From a virus, in the IMG/VR virus record IMGVR_UViG_3300042884_000922, positions 1 through 57,314 of that record: DNA of 57,314 nt; one strand, 5' to 3'. Below the pieces are notes generated by a model. The model saw nothing but the letters and a program-made list of their open reading frames with translations. It ran no database searches and was not told the origin of the DNA. The translations under genes were made by a program, and so were the position numbers. Below, piece by piece: positions 1,675-14,040 of the stretch (position 1 is its first letter; each line of letters starts with the position of its first letter).

Positions 1675-2884
1675 TGCATTTAAAGCTGGACGCGTAATTG
1701 CGCCTGACGCAAAATGGACAGGTGACGAACCAGACTGGAATGGTTGGGAAACTTGGCCAACCGAAAAGTTTTATAAGACACGGGCACGTGCTTTAGGGTT
1801 TTATAATTACTACTTGGATACTGCCGCGATGAAGCCACTCGTGCTTGATTGGATGAAGATCAACGGGTATAACAAGGATGATGTCTCTGCAATCAAAGAG
1901 GCAAACCCAAATGTTTTACCAAGCACTGTTGGCAAACTTGTACGATGCTTGACCCGTGGAATGCCAAGCATACACCCGCAGGCAACAGATTATTTTGCAA
2001 CACTTCCTTTTCATGATGAGCCGCCAGTTCCAAAGGATGACGCATCAGTTGTGCATTACGAGTTAAAGCGTGCTATTACTCTTTTGCGAGCAAGTTCATT
2101 GGCAAATGACGGTGATGGCACAAAAGTCAAAGTTCCAACTCCTAGTCCGCTTGACCGTATACGCGAGAGGGTGCACAAAGAGATTGTTTCACCACTTGAA
2201 GATTGTCTCGAGCAGTGGGCGGTCACTCGTTCTGGAAACGCATCCTTTAATATGTCAGTTGCATTACGGGACTCTAAGATTCCTGCACAAGGCTGCAAGA
2301 CTATACTTGATTGGTTAGAAAAGAACCATACTGAGTATAACGGAGCGCTTCAGCGTGAGGATGAACAACTTGTTGAGGGATATTCATACTTATCAAAGCC
2401 TGAACTTCGAAAAATCGTAAAGTCTCTAGAGAGCATGATTGACGATGTTCGTAACCACACAAAAATTAAAAATTCTACTCGCAAGCCACGTAAGAAAAAG
2501 GTTAAAGATGCGAGCAAGCAGGTGTCTAAACTAAAATATCAACAACACTCTGCTGACTGGAGTCTTGATTCGGTTTCGCCGAATCGCATACCTTCTTCCC
2601 AGAGACTCTACCTCTTTAATACAAAAACACGTGCACTAAGTGTATATGTCGCCTCAGGCGCATCCGGGTTTGAAGTAAAAGGAACATCATTAAAGGGCTA
2701 TGACACTTCAATCAGCTTTGTAGCGACTCTTCGTAAGCCTAAAGAGACACTAAATAACATTTTAAGTTCTACACCAAAGCAACTTGAAAAGCTATTTTCA
2801 AACTTGTCAGTTAAGAAAAAACCGGCTAACGGACGTATAAATGAACAAATGGTAATCGTAAAGGTCGTTGAGAATAAACTATGA
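1667..2884 (+). CDS. Conserved-looking phage protein, function unknown
   Basis: I do not recognise this protein with certainty. It is 405 aa from ATG 1667; a TTG at 1658 is also in frame, but the ATG overlapping the previous stop fits the local pattern. The N-terminal region is rich in Trp (DWNGWETWP). A very basic stretch lies near residues 265-290 (RKPRKKKVKDASK) and could bind nucleic acid. A C-terminal block (LYLFNTKTRALSVYVASG, then KGTSLKGYDTSIS) reads like a compact beta-rich domain. Because it lies in the block leading to gp33, gp59 and gp32, a role in DNA or transcription is possible but not shown. The stop overlaps the next ATG by four bases. Confidence 0.6.
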   Translation: MSNAFKAGRVIAPDAKWTGDEPDWNGWETWPTEKFYKTRARALGFYNYYLDTAAMKPLVLDWMKINGYNKDDVSAIKEANPNVLPSTVGKLVRCLTRGMPSIHPQATDYFATLPFHDEPPVPKDDASVVHYELKRAITLLRASSLANDGDGTKVKVPTPSPLDRIRERVHKEIVSPLEDCLEQWAVTRSGNASFNMSVALRDSKIPAQGCKTILDWLEKNHTEYNGALQREDEQLVEGYSYLSKPELRKIVKSLESMIDDVRNHTKIKNSTRKPRKKKVKDASKQVSKLKYQQHSADWSLDSVSPNRIPSSQRLYLFNTKTRALSVYVASGASGFEVKGTSLKGYDTSISFVATLRKPKETLNNILSSTPKQLEKLFSNLSVKKKPANGRINEQMVIVKVVENKL

Positions 2885-3153
2885 AAAGTTTAAAAATTTA
2901 CACAATTATCAGTTGCAAAGACTGTCATGAATTTCATAAAATTGTAGATGAAGTTTGCAAAGAGTTGAATATGTCTAAACAACTCGTTGACATTGATAAA
3001 GAAGAAAATTTAAAAACTAATTTAGAAGAGATGGTAAAATACAATGTCATGAGTATACCACATACATTAGTATACAATGACGGAGTGCCGCACCATGGAA
3101 TGTCTGGAATATTAACTAAACAACAATTATTAGAACTAATAAATAATGTCTGA
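2881..3153 (+). CDS. Thioredoxin/glutaredoxin-like protein
   Basis: The protein is 90 aa with a thioredoxin-fold layout: a beta strand (KIYTIISC), a CxxC redox site C12-K-D-C15, and a cis-proline loop at S58-I59-P60 followed by HTLVYNDG. This is the usual size of phage glutaredoxins such as T4 NrdC, which pass electrons to ribonucleotide reductase. CKDC is unlike the usual thioredoxin CGPC or glutaredoxin CPYC, so the partner is uncertain. It starts within the stop of the upstream gene (ATGA) and overlaps the gp33 gene by eight bases. Confidence 0.8.
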   Translation: MKSLKIYTIISCKDCHEFHKIVDEVCKELNMSKQLVDIDKEENLKTNLEEMVKYNVMSIPHTLVYNDGVPHHGMSGILTKQQLLELINNV

Positions 3154-4067: not shown

Positions 4068-4991
4068 ATGTCATTTGATAAACTAAAACAAAATCGGGCA
4101 GCAAGCATCAATAAACTTGTTGAAGCTGCAGAAAAATTGAGTACACCAAAAGCTTCATACGGAGACGATCGTATTTGGAGCCCAGTAGTTGATAAAGCTG
4201 GAAACGGTTATGCCGTGATTCGCTTTTTGCCAGCGCTTGAAGGTGAAGATCTGCCATGGGTTCGCTTTTGGGATCATGGTTTTAAGGGACCAACTGGTCG
4301 TTGGTACATTGAAAATTCTCTTACCAGTATTGGTCAACCTGACCCGGTAAGTGAGATTAACAGCGTGCTTTGGAACAGCGGCAATGAAAAAGACAAAGAG
4401 ATTGCTCGCGAGCGTAAGCGTCGTTTACATTATGTCTCTAATATTCTAGTGCTTAGTGACCCAGCAAATCCAGACAACGAAGGTAAAGTTTTCTTGTACA
4501 AATATGGCAAGAAAATCTTTGACAAGATTATGGATATTATGCAACCACAGTTTCAAGATGAGACTCCAATCAACCCATTTGATTTTTGGGCAGGTGCAAA
4601 CTTTAAGTTGAAAATTCGCAACTTTGAAGGTTATCGTAACTATGACAAGTCTGAATTTGAAGGAGCTTCTGAACTCTTTAGCGGAGACGAAGCCAAGCTT
4701 GAGAAGACTTACAATTCGTTGTACTCATTAAAGGACTTTATTGATCCTGCAAACTATAAGTCGTATGCAGATCTTAAGCGCAAGCTTGTTGAAGTACTTG
4801 GTGCTGAAGCGCTCGCTGGTTCTTCTACTGAACCAGCAAGTGTAAACGTCGCGGCGGCAGCGGTAGGCAAGTCGGCTGAACAGACTCCAAGTTATAAAAG
4901 TACTGAATCGACATTCTCTGCATCAAGCACAGATGACGATGATGACGATGAGTCGCTTAGCTACTTTGCAAAGCTAGCTCAAGGCGGTTAA
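4068..4991 (+). CDS. 32: Single-stranded DNA-binding protein gp32
   Basis: gp32 coats single-stranded DNA during replication, recombination and repair. This protein is 307 aa (T4: 301). The core matches T4 gp32 closely: GNGYAVIRFLP, a DHGFK...GRWYIEN block, and NILVLSDPANPDNEGKVF followed by YKYGKKIFDKI. A Ser/Ala-rich linker leads to an acidic C-terminal tail (TDDDDDDESLSYFAKL), the part that recruits partner proteins. The T4 zinc-binding segment (one His, three Cys) is replaced here by a Cys-free stretch around residues 83-105, and the protein has no Cys at all. A strong terminator follows at 5014-5046. Confidence 0.95.
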   Translation: MSFDKLKQNRAASINKLVEAAEKLSTPKASYGDDRIWSPVVDKAGNGYAVIRFLPALEGEDLPWVRFWDHGFKGPTGRWYIENSLTSIGQPDPVSEINSVLWNSGNEKDKEIARERKRRLHYVSNILVLSDPANPDNEGKVFLYKYGKKIFDKIMDIMQPQFQDETPINPFDFWAGANFKLKIRNFEGYRNYDKSEFEGASELFSGDEAKLEKTYNSLYSLKDFIDPANYKSYADLKRKLVEVLGAEALAGSSTEPASVNVAAAAVGKSAEQTPSYKSTESTFSASSTDDDDDDESLSYFAKLAQGG

Positions 4992-5050: not shown

Positions 5051-6931
5051 TTATCTAGCCATTAAATTTAAATTACTGCCAGTCACAATAGGATCATAGA
5101 TTGCCTGCGTATTATTTACGCGACTTGTAGTATTGTTTGTAGTATTACCACCATAATTATTTACTACTATTGGCGCTACAAGAGTGTTTGCACTGCTTTG
5201 ATTTAAAGTTTGACCTGTATTATTTTGTGGTCTTTCGAAAGATGGTGTAGATATATTTGTAGTAATATTCGAACTCTTTAATAGTTCATCAGAGCGTGTA
5301 GCTGCTTCAGGAGTGCTATAGTCTAACTTCATGTCTCCTAAATCACCGCTAATCTTTTCGTTTCGCAGTTGGTTTAAATATTCAGCATCACTTAATACGC
5401 CATCCCCGTCAGTATCATAACCTTTTGTTTTTTGTAACTGTTTCGCAGTTTCTTTAGCGACGCCAGACGAATCCATTGCTTTAGATACTGCTCCTGTAGT
5501 TTCAGTCACTACATTTTCTTTCATTGCTGGTTTTTTCATGCCAGCATATTCGTATATTGATTCTGGTATTGCTTTTGCTGCCCAATATAATGGATCAAAT
5601 CCACTTGTATGTTTTTCAGGATCTGGCAATACTGCGCGCAATACAATTTTAGGAAATTCAAATATACCCTTAAACCCTTTAGTACTTATTGATTTCAATG
5701 CTTCTTTTAACATTTTAGGTATTGTGGTAAATGGAGCCAGCATTAAATCAAATATACTCTCACCAAAATCAACAAGACCTTCTACAAAACTTTCTATAAT
5801 AGCACTAAACGAAAAACTATCTAGTAACTTTTCAACTTGCTTGAAACCTAATGCTCCTGCTATCCAAGAGATTCCTCCTTTAATCATATCAAGTATTCCA
5901 CCAACAAGTCCATTTAGTAGACCACTTAATCCTCCTTTAATCGCTCCTTCGACACCATCTTTTTTATAGCCAGCAATTGCGCCCGTTACAGTATCCCATA
6001 ATCCCATTATTATTGTTAGAGGCAATGCTAATTTTGCTAATAGCCCTCCAAACATTTTACCTACCTTAAAGGCAACAGAGAATTTATTAGCAATTGCAGT
6101 ATATTTAGTTCCTATTGATGAAATAAAACCTTTTATGCCTGAAATCAATCCTTCACCCTTTGGTAAAAATTCTCCTATTGCTTTTAAAAGATCCGCAAAT
6201 GGTGTATAAAAAGATTTTATCTTTGAGACGAGACCTTTAAACATATCACTCTTATCTAATACGCCCTTTAATGCATTTTTACTAGCATTTAATCTTGAAA
6301 GTGCACCTTCCTTTATAGCAGTAAAAAAACCAGAAACGCTTGTGCGCAATGAATTTGAAAATTCACTTATTGCTTTTATAGCTTTTGTATTTTTAAAGCT
6401 AGTTAATATATTAGAATATAGAGTCTTAATTCCGTTAACAAGTCCTGATGTAAAAGATGAAATTGCTTTGCCTACTTTAGAATTTTTTAATGCACCAATT
6501 ATAAGTGCTGATAACTGACCAAAAAACCCAACCAGCATTCCAGTTAAAAACCCGGCAGCTCCTATAACTGCTCCTAATATTCCACCAATACCAATTCCGC
6601 TATCATCTTTAAGAGGACTCGGCAATCTCTCTTTATCTTTTTTGCCAAGTCCTCGTAACGCTTCAAGTAACTCGCGACGATTCTCTTCAGCTTGCAAATC
6701 GTTTCCAACAAATATATCTAAAAATTTAAATATATTTTTGTGTATTCCAGTTATTTGATCTAGAATTTGCGTAAAGATAGGCGCAGTCTCTTCAGTTCGT
6801 GACTCGCTTTCTTTTACGAGCGAATTGTTTAAACTTTCTACCGAATCAAATATAAGTTCATTTACATGATTATTGTCCTGCAATTCTCCTATAATTGAAG
6901 TTAGTAGTTTTGGTGATTCTGTAGTTTCCAT
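5051..6931 (-). CDS. Tail tape-measure-like protein with an EF-hand loop
   Basis: The protein is 626 aa, close to T4 gp29 (590 aa). Residues 1-100 are charged and helical. From about 110 to 440 it is a run of Gly/Ala-rich hydrophobic helices (GIGGILGAVIGAAGFLTG and similar), as in tape-measure proteins. A canonical EF-hand loop lies at 506-517 (DTDGDGVLSDAE). The C-terminus is Asn/Thr-rich (VVNNYGGNTTNNTTSRVNN), also usual for tape measures. The start overlaps the stop of the gp51-like ORF (TAATG), so it follows gp26 and gp51 like tape-measure genes after their assembly chaperones. I see no direct T4 gp29 motif, so the role rests on architecture and position; a membrane-active baseplate protein is an alternative. 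Confidence 0.6.
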   Translation of the reverse strand: METTESPKLLTSIIGELQDNNHVNELIFDSVESLNNSLVKESESRTEETAPIFTQILDQITGIHKNIFKFLDIFVGNDLQAEENRRELLEALRGLGKKDKERLPSPLKDDSGIGIGGILGAVIGAAGFLTGMLVGFFGQLSALIIGALKNSKVGKAISSFTSGLVNGIKTLYSNILTSFKNTKAIKAISEFSNSLRTSVSGFFTAIKEGALSRLNASKNALKGVLDKSDMFKGLVSKIKSFYTPFADLLKAIGEFLPKGEGLISGIKGFISSIGTKYTAIANKFSVAFKVGKMFGGLLAKLALPLTIIMGLWDTVTGAIAGYKKDGVEGAIKGGLSGLLNGLVGGILDMIKGGISWIAGALGFKQVEKLLDSFSFSAIIESFVEGLVDFGESIFDLMLAPFTTIPKMLKEALKSISTKGFKGIFEFPKIVLRAVLPDPEKHTSGFDPLYWAAKAIPESIYEYAGMKKPAMKENVVTETTGAVSKAMDSSGVAKETAKQLQKTKGYDTDGDGVLSDAEYLNQLRNEKISGDLGDMKLDYSTPEAATRSDELLKSSNITTNISTPSFERPQNNTGQTLNQSSANTLVAPIVVNNYGGNTTNNTTSRVNNTQAIYDPIVTGSNLNLMAR

Positions 6932-7107
6932 TATTTTTTACGTCGTTGTTCTTCTTCTTTTAAAAATTTTAATAATAATGAGATGTATACTTCCCTCTCC
7001 CACGGCAACATATTATCCAATTCAGTTAGGCTGTATTTATGATGTTGTAGCAGCGCAAAATTTGTTTGATAATAATTACTTAATGATTCATGCGAGAGGG
7101 TTATTCG
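6931..7107 (-). CDS. gp51-like baseplate hub factor, no start codon of its own
   Basis: This minus-strand frame ends at TAA 6933-6931 and encodes, over about 58 codons, a sequence like the short gp51 family of T4-like marine phages (YYQTNFALLQHHKYSLTEL, then WEREVYISLLLKFLKEEE). In T4, gp51 is a catalytic factor for baseplate hub assembly. No ATG, GTG or TTG exists in frame before the conserved part; the ATG at 7092-7090 is in the gp26 frame and stops after three codons. The frame is continuous with the -1 frame of gp26, entered at the heptamer T TTT TTC (7113-7107). It is therefore probably made as a gp26-gp51 fusion of about 292 aa by a -1 frameshift. A non-AUG start (ATA 7104-7102) or a sequencing error in the T6 run are alternatives. 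Confidence 0.6.
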   Translation of the reverse strand, partial: RITLSHESLSNYYQTNFALLQHHKYSLTELDNMLPWEREVYISLLLKFLKEEEQRRKK

Positions 7108-7808
7108 AAAAAAGAGTGTATGCCAGATAGTGTTATATCATTACTCTCTTTGCATGATGTGCAGTTAAAATGTATAGTTTTTTCTAATTTTGGAGAATTT
7201 TCAATAAAACTTTGTAGTTTGCCTAACTGTTCATGGTTTAATGAATTTACGAATGTGACCAGTTCTTCTCTTGGTGTATCATCTGTTGGATATACCTTTG
7301 ACTCGTCGAATATGGATTCGATTGACGAGATAATTATATCTGTAATTAGGTCTCCTTCACCTTTTGAAATGTCTGATAGCTTAGATATGTCTTTCGTCTT
7401 GATGTATCTCATGTTAACACCTACTTTTGGAGTCAACATAATTACTTTTTCTACATTTTTAGGAACAGTTACTGATATTTCATCAATGTTTATTGCGATA
7501 GGATTTTTATGATCACATTTTTTACACTTTACTAAAATGTTTGCAACTTCCCCCACGCTCTTTGAACGCAACTTTAAAAAAATATATTCTAGATCAAATG
7601 TGGTAAGATCATTAGGATTAACTTTTTCAAATGTACATGAACGTACGATGTCTTTCATTGCAGAGATCATTTGAGACGTCTCGCCAGACTCTTGAGCTAT
7701 AAGAAGTATTTTTTCTTCCTTTACTAAAAAGGGACGATATTCAACAGTTTTACCAGTTGATGGTATTGTAATATTATATTTTGGTATTTCAAGTGTTGGT
7801 AATGGCAT
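7101..7808 (-). CDS. 26: Baseplate hub protein gp26 with zinc-ribbon Cys pairs
   Basis: The protein is 235 aa and matches the T4 gp26-type baseplate family. It starts with a short beta region (TLEIPKYNITIPSTGKTV), continues with a FLVKEEKILLIAQES helix, and carries two Cys pairs, C95-K-K-C98 and C216-T-S-C219, which would form a zinc ribbon. T4 gp26 (208 aa) is needed to assemble the central hub of the baseplate. The gene lies between the tail-tube-like gene (four-base gap) and the gp51-like frame. Its last codons contain the heptamer T TTT TTC three codons before the stop, which could allow ribosomes to slip into the gp51-like frame. Confidence 0.8.
   Translation of the reverse strand: MPLPTLEIPKYNITIPSTGKTVEYRPFLVKEEKILLIAQESGETSQMISAMKDIVRSCTFEKVNPNDLTTFDLEYIFLKLRSKSVGEVANILVKCKKCDHKNPIAINIDEISVTVPKNVEKVIMLTPKVGVNMRYIKTKDISKLSDISKGEGDLITDIIISSIESIFDESKVYPTDDTPREELVTFVNSLNHEQLGKLQSFIENSPKLEKTIHFNCTSCKESNDITLSGIHSFFE
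7107..7113 (-). promoter_or_regulatory. Candidate -1 ribosomal frameshift heptamer
   Basis: Read 5'-3' on the minus strand the bases are T TTT TTC with the zero frame as X XXY YYZ, a classic slippery pattern, placed immediately before the GAA codon and stop of gp26. Slipping back one base continues into the open gp51-like frame. No strong stimulatory stem-loop was seen downstream by eye. Confidence 0.5.
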
Positions 7809-7811
7809 AAT

Positions 7812-8336
7812 TTATATATGGTTCGTTATTTCATATTTATCATAGGTCAGAGTGACATTAAATTTTGCAACTTCATCATCAGATGCGCTGTTTAATTCTA
7901 TAGTTTGTGCGCTTATTGGATAGGCATCCAATAATTTATGACTATAGACCTTTTCATTACGATCATTCAGTTGATTTATAATGACATCTCTACAATATGA
8001 TTTTCTATATTTCAAATAATATTCATCTGCATTTGTTTCAATAATTTTTGACATCCATGTGTCAAAAAACTTTTTTGTATAATAGTCTTGGGTGAGTAAA
8101 AAGGTTAATTCCACATCTTCATACATAATCCCAGTGGGGTATTTTGTGGCATGACGTATATGACTATATTCTGTAGTAAATATCTGCATACCAGGAAGAG
8201 ACACACTTTCGCATAGTAGGTCTATGCTTTTTGAAAGTTTTCCAACGTTGTCAAGTATTTCTATGCTAAATTTATTAGAACGAGCAAGTCCGTGCCGCGC
8301 TACTATTTCAGATTTTATTGTCTCTATATTATTCAT
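7812..8336 (-). CDS. Tail-tube-like protein (gp19/gp54 type)
   Basis: The protein is 174 aa. It has the layout of T4 tail-tube proteins: a SNKFSIEI strand, LLCESVSLPGMQ, a KYPTG-YEDVELTFLLTQDY block, and a C-terminal DAYPISAQTIELN...FNVTLTYDKYEI strand pair. In T4, gp19 forms the tube, and gp54 starts tube polymerisation on the baseplate with the same fold. Its place in the gp4-gp26 baseplate block favours a tube-initiator or baseplate role, but the exact T4 equivalent cannot be fixed by eye. The start is taken as ATG 8336-8334, which overlaps the upstream stop (ATGA). A start at 8360 would add eight residues. Confidence 0.65.
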   Translation of the reverse strand: MNNIETIKSEIVARHGLARSNKFSIEILDNVGKLSKSIDLLCESVSLPGMQIFTTEYSHIRHATKYPTGIMYEDVELTFLLTQDYYTKKFFDTWMSKIIETNADEYYLKYRKSYCRDVIINQLNDRNEKVYSHKLLDAYPISAQTIELNSASDDEVAKFNVTLTYDKYEITNHI

Positions 8337-8917
8337 ATCAATCCGCGGGTACTTCCCCAAAGAGTTTGTTTAGTTTGGCCAATAAATGATTCGGTCGGCA
8401 AAAATAGTGCAATTTCCCATTCGGTTGGTAGTATTTCGACAGTCTTTGATGAAATCTGGTTATATAGGTAATGTTTAAAACACGGCGCAAAGGCACGAAG
8501 TTTTGCTGTGCTATTAAGTAGATTATATGATAGACGAAAGCGAGTGGATTCATCAAGTTTTTTATTATTTGTATAATCCATAAGACGATCAAAAAAAATG
8601 GCACGCTGTCGTGGCGGAAGATAATGTAGATTTAGGCCATAAAATCCTCCCTTTGCAGGGCCGACCATAAGTATAAGTGGAAAACGATCATAGTATGGCA
8701 ATGTCTCTTTATGTTTAGGATCATATAAAAACATAAACATACGACCAATAAGTGGACGAGCACGTGTTACGAGACTGTCATCAGTTAAAACCTTTGATGG
8801 AGATATATTTGTCAGAGTTCTTATTTTTTTATAGAACCAATCTTTAGACTCTGCAGTACGAGGCAAAAACCCCGCCCGGTCTGCATCTGACTGTATTTTA
8901 GAAAAAAGAGACGGCAT
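8333..8917 (-). CDS. Conserved T4-like protein, possible gp2 (DNA end protector)
   Basis: The protein is 194 aa. Its central block (RMFMFLYDPKHKETLPYYD, then FPLIL and GLNLHYLPPRQRA) is one I associate with a conserved protein of T4-like marine phages. By position next to gp4 it could be gp2, which caps genome ends in T4 and is gp4's neighbour there. The T4 protein is longer, so this rests on synteny and is tentative. ATG 8917 is preferred over ATG 8935 because a late promoter box (TATAAATA, 8930-8923) lies between them, five bases before 8917, the same spacing as at other late genes. The stop overlaps the tail-tube-like gene. Confidence 0.5.
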   Translation of the reverse strand: MPSLFSKIQSDADRAGFLPRTAESKDWFYKKIRTLTNISPSKVLTDDSLVTRARPLIGRMFMFLYDPKHKETLPYYDRFPLILMVGPAKGGFYGLNLHYLPPRQRAIFFDRLMDYTNNKKLDESTRFRLSYNLLNSTAKLRAFAPCFKHYLYNQISSKTVEILPTEWEIALFLPTESFIGQTKQTLWGSTRGLI

Positions 8918-11503: not shown

Positions 11504-12955
11504 ATGTCAACCAATAGTGTACCAAATAGAAACACTCCAAAAGTATCGCAATATGATACACAACTTGGCGTTATACCATCTACATACTCAATAAAGGCAT
11601 TTGATTTAACAAATTCAGAGGAGATAACAAAAAGTATAATTCCAATTGTCAAGGAATTTTCCATGACTGAAGAACTCTTTAGTCCAGTAAACGTTTTAAA
11701 TATAAAAATTTATGACGATATAAATTTCTTTGAGGAGATGGGATTAAACGGCCAAGAAAAAGTCTATTTAAAAATTGAAATAGAATGTTTAGTTTCTTCA
11801 GATTCTAAAGAAGAAAATTTAGAAACTAGAAATGGCGGCAGCAAAGTGCGTAAAAAAACCTATGAATATACATTTGCTGTAAAAGAATATCCAAACTATC
11901 AAAAGGATATAAACTCACAGGGTGTCCAAGAGTATAATATGATATGCATACCAACTTATGCATATCTGAGTGCGTTATCACGAATTAGTCGTGCAATAAC
12001 AGGCCCAGTAATTGATAATATCAAAAATATATTTACAAATGATCTTTATCTTGGGAAAGACAGTAAAGATGAAAAACTTGAAGTTGTTGGCAATCCAATG
12101 ACACAATTTGAGGGCATTATTACAATTCAATCTCCATTAAAGGCAATCGAATGGCTAAGGTCAAAACTGTATGATGATATTTCTTCTCCGTTTTTTATCT
12201 ACCGACCTCTTCGTGAAAATAAAATATTCATACATTGTTTAACAAACATAACTGAAGAAGAAAAATATCGAGTCTTTAGATATATTCCGTTTTTACAAAA
12301 ATCTGCGCAAAACGCCTCAGACGAAGCGTATAATAGAATATATAATTTACGAGGAGTCGTAAAAATGGATAAACTTGCTCAAGCTTTAGGTGGCGGATTT
12401 TCTTCTAAGGTGCAACTAACAAATATTACAAAAAAGTCAGTCACTGAAAAAACACTAAACTATGCTGAGTCTATTTCTAAAAAAATTACAAGCAAATTAA
12501 ATCCTCTTACTTCATACATAAAAAGTATTGTATTTTTAAATAACAATAATAGATCATCATCTGGATCTTCTAATAATAAGGCCTCATTAGAAGACTATGC
12601 TGATGCAAATACGGTAAATGTTCAGTCAAACACGTCAGCAGATAATTCTCTTTCAGCTGATGACGTAATTGATAATCTTATATTACAACAATCTTTGATA
12701 TCTCGGTTAGAATCTAGAAATCAAGAAATTGAAGTTAATGGAGACATGCATCTAAATCCAGGTCAAAAAATTGACATGCAAATTGGTAGAATGTATAACC
12801 CAAAAAGAAAAGAAAAGAGTGATGAACTTGATACACAATACGCTCAAGATGATATTGATGAATTTTTATCTGGAATCTATATTATTGGGATTGCTGCACA
12901 TACATTTAAAGAAGGACTCTATCGTACGCGCTTAAAAGTATTTAATGATATATGA
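11504..12955 (+). CDS. Baseplate hub subunit, gp27-like
   Basis: The protein is 483 aa, against 391 aa for T4 gp27. gp27 forms the trimeric ring that holds the gp5 needle. Support comes from its place between gp53 and the gp5-like OB protein, from the N-terminal half (EFSMTEELFSPVNVLNIKIYD, as in hub domain folds), and from the C-terminal GIYIIGIAAHTFKEGLYRT strand pattern typical of gp27/gpD/VgrG-like hubs. A Ser/Asn-rich linker (residues about 345-375) separates the parts. It overlaps the next gene by four bases. Direct identity to T4 gp27 cannot be claimed by eye. Confidence 0.65.
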   Translation: MSTNSVPNRNTPKVSQYDTQLGVIPSTYSIKAFDLTNSEEITKSIIPIVKEFSMTEELFSPVNVLNIKIYDDINFFEEMGLNGQEKVYLKIEIECLVSSDSKEENLETRNGGSKVRKKTYEYTFAVKEYPNYQKDINSQGVQEYNMICIPTYAYLSALSRISRAITGPVIDNIKNIFTNDLYLGKDSKDEKLEVVGNPMTQFEGIITIQSPLKAIEWLRSKLYDDISSPFFIYRPLRENKIFIHCLTNITEEEKYRVFRYIPFLQKSAQNASDEAYNRIYNLRGVVKMDKLAQALGGGFSSKVQLTNITKKSVTEKTLNYAESISKKITSKLNPLTSYIKSIVFLNNNNRSSSGSSNNKASLEDYADANTVNVQSNTSADNSLSADDVIDNLILQQSLISRLESRNQEIEVNGDMHLNPGQKIDMQIGRMYNPKRKEKSDELDTQYAQDDIDEFLSGIYIIGIAAHTFKEGLYRTRLKVFNDI

Positions 12956-14040
12956 ATATTAACAATTGGTTTACTGGAATTGTAGAAGACGTTAATGATC
13001 CATCTCAACAGGGACGAGTTCGTGTTCGGTGCATGAACTATCATAATGGCAATATTACTGAACTTCCAACAGAAAAATTGCCATGGGCAACATGTATTAT
13101 GCCAGTCACCAGCGCTGGGGTGTCTGGTATTGGTCAAAGCCCTACAGGACTTGTGCCAGGATCATGGGTACTTGGATTTTTTAGAGACGAAAATGATTTG
13201 CAAGATCCAATTATAATCGGTAGTATATCTACCGAAAAAGGCTATGAAATTGGATATAGCAATAATGTTGATGTAACTCCAAGTTTCTATTCTAGCGGAG
13301 AAACTTTAAAATTACTACCAACCGCAGCATCGCTCTATGGTTTCGCAGATCCACATGGAACCTATCCATTACGCACAGGAGCTGATATTCCTGATTCGTC
13401 GACTACGTCTCAAAACGCATTTAGCGCAAGTTTCTATGCAAAAAATAACGCTTCCTTAAATATTGCTGGGGTTGGAGTTGCTGATAGTGTAGTTGAAAGC
13501 AACCTATCATCATTTGAAGATGCTCCAAAATCAACTACACTTAGCGGTAGTTTGAGAGAAAAAATAATTTCGGTTGCGCGTGGTGAAGCTGGAGGTAGAA
13601 CAATAGAAGGACCAGCCAAAAACGATCACCCTAATATTAGAAAATATTGGAGTTATCTTGGTGCTGGAAAACCTCCTTTGCCGTATTGCGCAGCATTTGC
13701 ATCTTGGGTAATTGCTCAAGCTGGTCTAGATGAAAAAAAATGTCCAAAAACTGCAAGCTCTCAAGCTTTCATAACATGGGCAAAGAACAATACAGATATT
13801 GTAACTCTTACAGTCAACCCTACGCGAGGAGTGAAAGCTGGTGACATTATTGTATGGTCATCAGGCGGGGGAAAGGGCCATGTCGGCTTTGCTTCTGGAG
13901 ATTCAGACGACAGCGGAAGGTACGAAGCAATAGACGGTAATAGTAGTTCTGGAACTAGGGATGGCAAAGGCAAAGAGGGAGTGTTTGAAAAACCGAAAAA
14001 CGTGCGTGGCGCAAAGGCGCTAATTTCATGGAAAATATAA
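12952..14040 (+). CDS. gp5-like baseplate protein: OB fold plus CHAP-type peptidase
   Basis: The protein is 362 aa. Residues 1-98 are a gp5/VgrG OB fold (NWFTGIVEDVNDPSQQGRV, FFRDENDLQDPIIIGS). From about 205 to 362 lies a CHAP/NlpC-type hydrolase with a plausible triad C246 (PYCAAFASW), H310 (KGHVGFA) and D328 or N330 (EAIDGNSS). T4 gp5 instead carries a GH24 lysozyme between OB fold and needle. The role would be local cutting of peptidoglycan peptide bonds as the needle pierces the envelope. The needle domain is missing here and is found in the next gene. The start overlaps the hub stop (ATGA). The specific bond cleaved is not known. Confidence 0.8.
   Translation: MNINNWFTGIVEDVNDPSQQGRVRVRCMNYHNGNITELPTEKLPWATCIMPVTSAGVSGIGQSPTGLVPGSWVLGFFRDENDLQDPIIIGSISTEKGYEIGYSNNVDVTPSFYSSGETLKLLPTAASLYGFADPHGTYPLRTGADIPDSSTTSQNAFSASFYAKNNASLNIAGVGVADSVVESNLSSFEDAPKSTTLSGSLREKIISVARGEAGGRTIEGPAKNDHPNIRKYWSYLGAGKPPLPYCAAFASWVIAQAGLDEKKCPKTASSQAFITWAKNNTDIVTLTVNPTRGVKAGDIIVWSSGGGKGHVGFASGDSDDSGRYEAIDGNSSSGTRDGKGKEGVFEKPKNVRGAKALISWKI

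Follow-up and report, generated by a model that had tools for sequence, protein, structure and literature searches.

A conserved slippery sequence and a predicted long-range RNA stem suggest -1 frameshifting from gp26 into a gp51-like frame in a T4-related virus contig

The window analyzed here is the whole of the IMG/VR virus contig IMGVR_UViG_3300042884_000922, which is 57,314 bases long and a fragment of its genome. Its minus strand carries a gp26 gene and, behind it, a gp51-like reading frame for which a programmed -1 frameshift had been proposed. The gp26 gene (7101-7808, minus strand) encodes 235 aa, the putative short form of a tail-assembly chaperone (equivalent to TAC-N or lambda G). 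The protein matches the Pfam family T4_baseplate (PF12322) with an E-value of 8.9e-58 and 196 bits (cut-off 24.5), and phrog_150 with 4.4e-65. No other protein of the contig matches PF12322; as the contig is a fragment, a second copy is possible elsewhere. On the minus strand, the 3' end of the gene reads TCT TTT TTC GAA TAA. It thus holds the slippery heptamer T_TTT_TTC (7107-7113), of the general form X_XXY_YYZ, in the phase of gp26, and the six nucleotides GAATAA (7101-7106) behind it contain the final codon and the stop. The preliminary description had placed the heptamer at 7113-7107, in the right phase and just before the last gp26 codon and stop, and these coordinates are correct.

The gp51-like frame lies in -1 relative to gp26 (6931-7107, minus strand; P0001) and comprises 58 codons and a TAA at 6933-6931. 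Its translation begins with FF at the slip site and continues for 58 aa as RITLSHESLSNYYQTNFALLQHHKYSLTELDNMLPWEREVYISLLLKFLKEEEQRRKK. This frame matches phrog_634 (baseplate hub assembly catalyst) with an E-value of 1.9e-27, and the motif FF[RL]I.L.H..L..Y is conserved immediately past the slip site. As had been claimed, the frame is continuous with the -1 frame of gp26 and has no start before its conserved part: the earliest ATG, GTG or TTG is the 30th codon past the slip, within the conserved domain. The predicted gp26-51 fusion would be 292 aa long, the length given in the preliminary description.

The neighboring genes are those of a tail module. The next gene (5051-6931, minus strand, 626 aa) had been described as tape measure-like, and its product indeed matches phrog_58 (E 1.6e-15) and other tape-measure families. 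Its ATG overlaps the stop of the gp51 frame as TAATG. Directly upstream of gp26 lies a T4 gp19-like tail tube gene (7812-8360, minus strand; PF06841, E 2e-12). The order is hence tail tube, gp26/gp26-51 and tape measure, which matches the order V, G/GT and H in lambda.

The heptamer alone is unremarkable in this AT-rich contig: TTTTTTC is found there 26 times, compared to an expectation of 29, and is no rarer than chance. We therefore rejected judging the case from the heptamer of the window, and conservation carries the argument. Loci were gathered by similarity to the gp26 protein and not by the heptamer, apart from a few isolates that were picked by gp51 similarity. They comprise four close IMG/VR contigs, 80 further ones, isolates from a phage collection and one extra contig, from which a non-redundant set of 87 loci (gp26 less than 70% identical) was formed. 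T_TTT_TTN with the gp51 frame in -1 is present in 105/105 gp26 loci outside the Ackermannviridae, and in the non-redundant set it stands 0-3 codons before the gp26 stop. Carriers include the Kyanoviridae, Pelagibacter and Methylophilales phages, pf16, Cr30, Pootjesviridae (RL38J1), Menderavirus, phiM7 and X1. Within the Straboviridae it is found in KVP40, phiAS5 and S13, and also in the related Vibrio phage D490. Given the encoded amino acids, codon usage predicts 30.7 slippery sites in the 87 loci, whereas 87 were seen (joint log10 p -40.3 under the assumption of independent loci). Within the same gp26 genes, only 2/62 internal Phe-Phe pairs are slippery. In the 87 loci, the -1 frame stays open for 57-71 codons, and its protein is conserved, the best phage relative being 77.6% identical.

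Downstream of the heptamer, a long-range stem is predicted as the 3' stimulatory element. Elements of this kind, a short distance past the heptamer, are frequent in G/GT-type frameshifts but do not occur in all of them. Its 5' arm is CCCTCTCGCATG (7089-7100, minus strand) and its 3' arm CGTGGGAGAGGG (6993-7004, minus strand). With a single mismatch, CCCUCUCGCAUG (7100-7089) of the window can form a duplex with CGUGGGAGAGGG (7004-6993) that begins 6 nt past the heptamer (fold z -2.94). Compared with synonymous shuffles that keep the protein, the duplex is stronger than expected, with a mean z of -1.94 over the 87 loci; at five control positions within gp26, z ranged from -0.12 to -0.30. Where third-codon positions face each other in the stem, they covary (columns 18/117, Fisher p 4e-7; columns 15/120, p 6e-4). 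In an alignment of 76 sequences, 59 cells show two-sided changes against 33 ± 5 after shuffling (reached in 0/500 shuffles), although these shuffle tests are inflated by the relatedness of the sequences. In the same alignment, 73% of the stem cells pair, compared to 40-62% in slid controls. On these sequence comparisons, the stem is constrained beyond coding needs and covaries, and it would stimulate frameshifting. Rfam gave zero matches in the window. The stem seems to be new, as we found no description of it in the literature that could be searched.

We consider it very probable that a programmed -1 frameshift yields gp26 and the 292-aa gp26-51 fusion as a tail-assembly chaperone pair of the G/GT type. 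The preliminary description had suggested this equivalence, and it gains support because the heptamer is conserved beyond codon usage, the -1 protein is conserved, a covarying stem stands at a 6-nt spacing and the gene order is shared. From these features, we infer that frameshifting itself takes place. In such a mechanism, gp26 would be the abundant short chaperone. A minority of ribosomes would be slowed at T_TTT_TTC by the stem 6 nt downstream, step back by one base and continue in the gp51 frame, giving the fusion. By analogy with lambda gpG and gpGT, both forms would then cooperate on the tape-measure protein encoded next: gp26 would coat the tape measure, and the gp51 tail would recruit the tail-tube subunits encoded just upstream.

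Transcriptional slippage on the T run could instead produce mixed mRNAs without ribosomal frameshifting, and runs of 7-8 T in 33/87 loci would suit it. However, 54/87 loci, including the window, have only six T. A run of six is short for known polymerase slippage. Such slippage also needs neither a fixed codon phase nor an RNA stem 6 nt downstream, and we regard it as very unlikely.

Several observations weigh against the frameshift interpretation or its generality. An upstream Shine-Dalgarno (SD)-like stretch is lacking in the window (anti-SD energy -1.5 against a median of -5.7), while 73/87 relatives have one at or below -4 kcal/mol. In relatives, this stretch mostly follows from the encoded LEGL (energy -6.1 observed, -5.1 as the mean of synonymous shuffles); as the window lacks it, we do not claim an SD-like stimulator for the window phage. 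As to the stem, the control slid by -3 has a covariation score of 0.191 compared to 0.188 for the stem itself, but far fewer of its cells pair. Of the 12-bp stem, at least 11 pairs can form in 28/77 sequences, which makes it complete or nearly so in these, and some relatives pair otherwise or weakly (L063, S-PM2, HTVC008M); more distant phages may use other RNA structures. The fold search described below found no significant match in the PDB. The Ackermannviridae, treated below as well, lack the heptamer. Finally, the preliminary description had suggested comparing relatives for both the heptamer and the missing start codon. The heptamer held throughout the loci outside the Ackermannviridae, but the absence of a start is not universal. 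ATG stands in the first codons past the heptamer in 11/87 loci, and any of ATG, GTG or TTG in 19/87, with the heptamer kept (e.g., Cr30, KVP40, phiM7). Judging from these starts, the gp51 tail could also be made alone in the 19 relatives.

Such early starts, several of them in TGATG or TAATG overlaps (Cr30, KVP40, phiM7), would also fit a separate gp51 gene that is translated by coupling or begins at a non-standard start behind the gp26 stop; public records annotate it as a separate gene. In the window and most relatives, however, the conserved domain has already begun where the first usable start occurs: the first ATG of the -1 frame is more than 15 codons beyond the heptamer in 69/87 loci (48/87 when GTG and TTG are counted too). 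Conservation of the protein already sets in at the heptamer, and the window has no SD-like sequence upstream. A separate gene would also leave the constraint on heptamer and stem unexplained, and we regard it as very unlikely. Four loci (L013, L016, L020, L103) keep the heptamer and have a start that overlaps or adjoins the gp26 stop (TGATG or TAATG); here, the gp51 tail might also be produced alone.

An assembly or sequencing error is conceivable, as homopolymers are error-prone and a one-base change in the run would join the frames into one continuous fused gene. Its probability is negligible, though, since a contig from another sample (L002, IMG/VR), whose gp26 is identical to that of the window, shows the same split frames with six T and no start, relatives with 79, 66 and 67% identity also keep T6 without a start, and the frames are split in all other loci, many of them independently sequenced isolates. 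That the gp51 frame is a useless, decaying remnant, as its lack of an own start might suggest, is equally negligible in view of its conserved, stop-free protein.

A 2016 review named T4 as the exception to G/GT frameshifting (PMC5009743). The preliminary description stated that T4 makes gp26 and gp51 as separate proteins. This is right in that there are two genes, which lie on opposite strands, but it overlooks that T4 gp51 is, on sequence comparison, a gp26 paralogue that carries the gp51 tail as a fusion and so corresponds to the long form, encoded by a gene of its own. Residues 1-201 of T4 gp51 match PF12322 (E 3.9e-52) and are followed by the gp51 tail (phrog_634), and hhalign of T4-type gp26 and gp51 profiles gave 99.1% probability (E 6e-19). 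A hidden Markov model built from the -1-frame tails alone matches the C-terminus of 6/6 T4-type gp51 proteins and no T4-type gp26. The end of T4 gp26 is still GLKEFF, with FF encoded as TTC TTT. In T4 and its close kin, the long form is thus a ready-made fusion from one of two genes, whereas the window phage apparently has one gene and a frameshift.

We counted PF12322 copies in 26 genomes. Two copies and no heptamer were found in six of them (T4, Aeromonas 25, RB43, KARL-1, phiP4-3, FL15). The other 20 have one copy, 19 with the heptamer, and the remaining one is the Ackermannviridae phage PhaxI. In a tree rooted by midpoint only, the fused gp51 proteins are united in a single supported group. 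The gp26 copies make up another, the exception being the RB43 sequence, which is short and long-branched and stands beside the gp51 group. With this root, the tree fits one duplication that replaced the frameshift in the T4 branch. In RB43 (L106), the PF12322 genes are in tandem on one strand with the fused gp51-like gene first and the shorter gp26-like gene second, an arrangement that differs from the divergent pair of T4.

In the Ackermannviridae (PhaxI and 15 IMG/VR loci; L021, L120-L134), a gp51-like frame also lies in -1 behind gp26. None of the 16 loci has the canonical heptamer; all 16 have ATT TTC ATT TAA in its place. The 29 nt around the gp26 stop are identical in 16/16 loci, while upstream codons vary. 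A slip of one tRNA on T_TTC is one possibility in this family.

The AlphaFold2 model of gp26 is of high confidence, with a pLDDT of 93.4. Searching the PDB with it gave no match with E ≤ 0.001, HK97 gp13 (2ob9) appearing at rank 26 with a probability of 0.20, and a PDB sequence search with the gp26 profile gave no match. In BFVD, the best matches of the fold search included gp26-family baseplate-hub proteins and unnamed or uncharacterized phage proteins, and none was a named tail-assembly chaperone from a different type of phage. We do not claim a shared fold with the HK97 or lambda chaperones because no solved structure matched significantly.

The concept of frameshifting in T4-like phages is already published, and the window phage adds a new member. 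The T4-like chaperone genes TAC-N/TAC-NC (gp26/gp51) were identified by Vladimirov, Gautam and Davidson (2022, Virology 566:9-15), as cited in PMC10885494 and PMC12846349. According to the PRFect paper (PMC10885494), their work reports that some T4-like phages have a short gene and a long fusion gene without frameshifting. In the paper on phage Adele (PMC12846349), poly-T slippery sequences in the TAC-N genes of T4-like phages are attributed to Vladimirov et al. Going by these citing papers, the system belongs to the same PF12322 family and follows the same short/long logic as in the window phage. Adele itself (Vandenendeviridae/Andersonviridae) has a -1 frameshift with the poly-T motif GTTTTT near the 3' end of TAC-N, and its downstream frame was mis-annotated as a separate gene, like the gp51 frame here (PMC12846349). 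Phage family and motif differ, and the likeness described here is one of frameshift features. In P2, which has a contractile tail, E/E' extends the chaperone upstream of the tape measure by a -1 frameshift, with proteins that differ from gp26/gp51 (PMC5009743). Lambda G/GT has short and long forms as proposed for the window phage; its heptamer differs, and the long-range stem is predicted for the window phage. Gp26 of the window has no detectable sequence match and no significant structural match to solved chaperones.

Elsewhere in the window, a gp5-type OB domain (PF06714) is joined to a CHAP domain (PF05257) and not to a T4-type lysozyme (12952-14040, plus strand). Near the contig end are genes for a thymidylate synthase of the ThyX type (PF02511) and for a small thioredoxin-like protein (522-1202 and 2881-3153, plus strand), close to which gp32 is found at 4068-4991.

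For the T4 superfamily, we consider it reasonably likely, though well short of certain, that the ancestral state was an invariant T_TTT_TTN -1 signal, often with an upstream SD-like stretch, and supplemented in the Kyanoviridae-like lineage by a dedicated long-range 3' stem (up to 12 bp, 6 nt downstream), which set the ratio of short to long form. This signal would have been lost once, in the T4 branch of the Straboviridae, when a duplication gave the stand-alone fused gp51. If this is true, the new parts would be the RNA stem and the clean split between one-copy and two-copy phages. The finding would correct how gp26/gp51 is annotated in many records of Kyanoviridae and related phages, which start gp51 at an internal ATG and so lose conserved sequence (S-RIM8, HTVC008M, Melnitz, Sf-CH8, phiAS5) or omit it (Syn30, S13, ACG-2014d); none of the records viewed (L006-L009, L017, L104, L110, L111) joins gp26 to gp51. 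It would partly explain why T4 appeared as the exception to the G/GT rule (PMC5009743) and provide a defined RNA element for which the influence on the ratio can be measured. The superfamily would then offer a natural comparison of two routes to fix this ratio, frameshifting in most of its members and a duplicated fused gene in T4.
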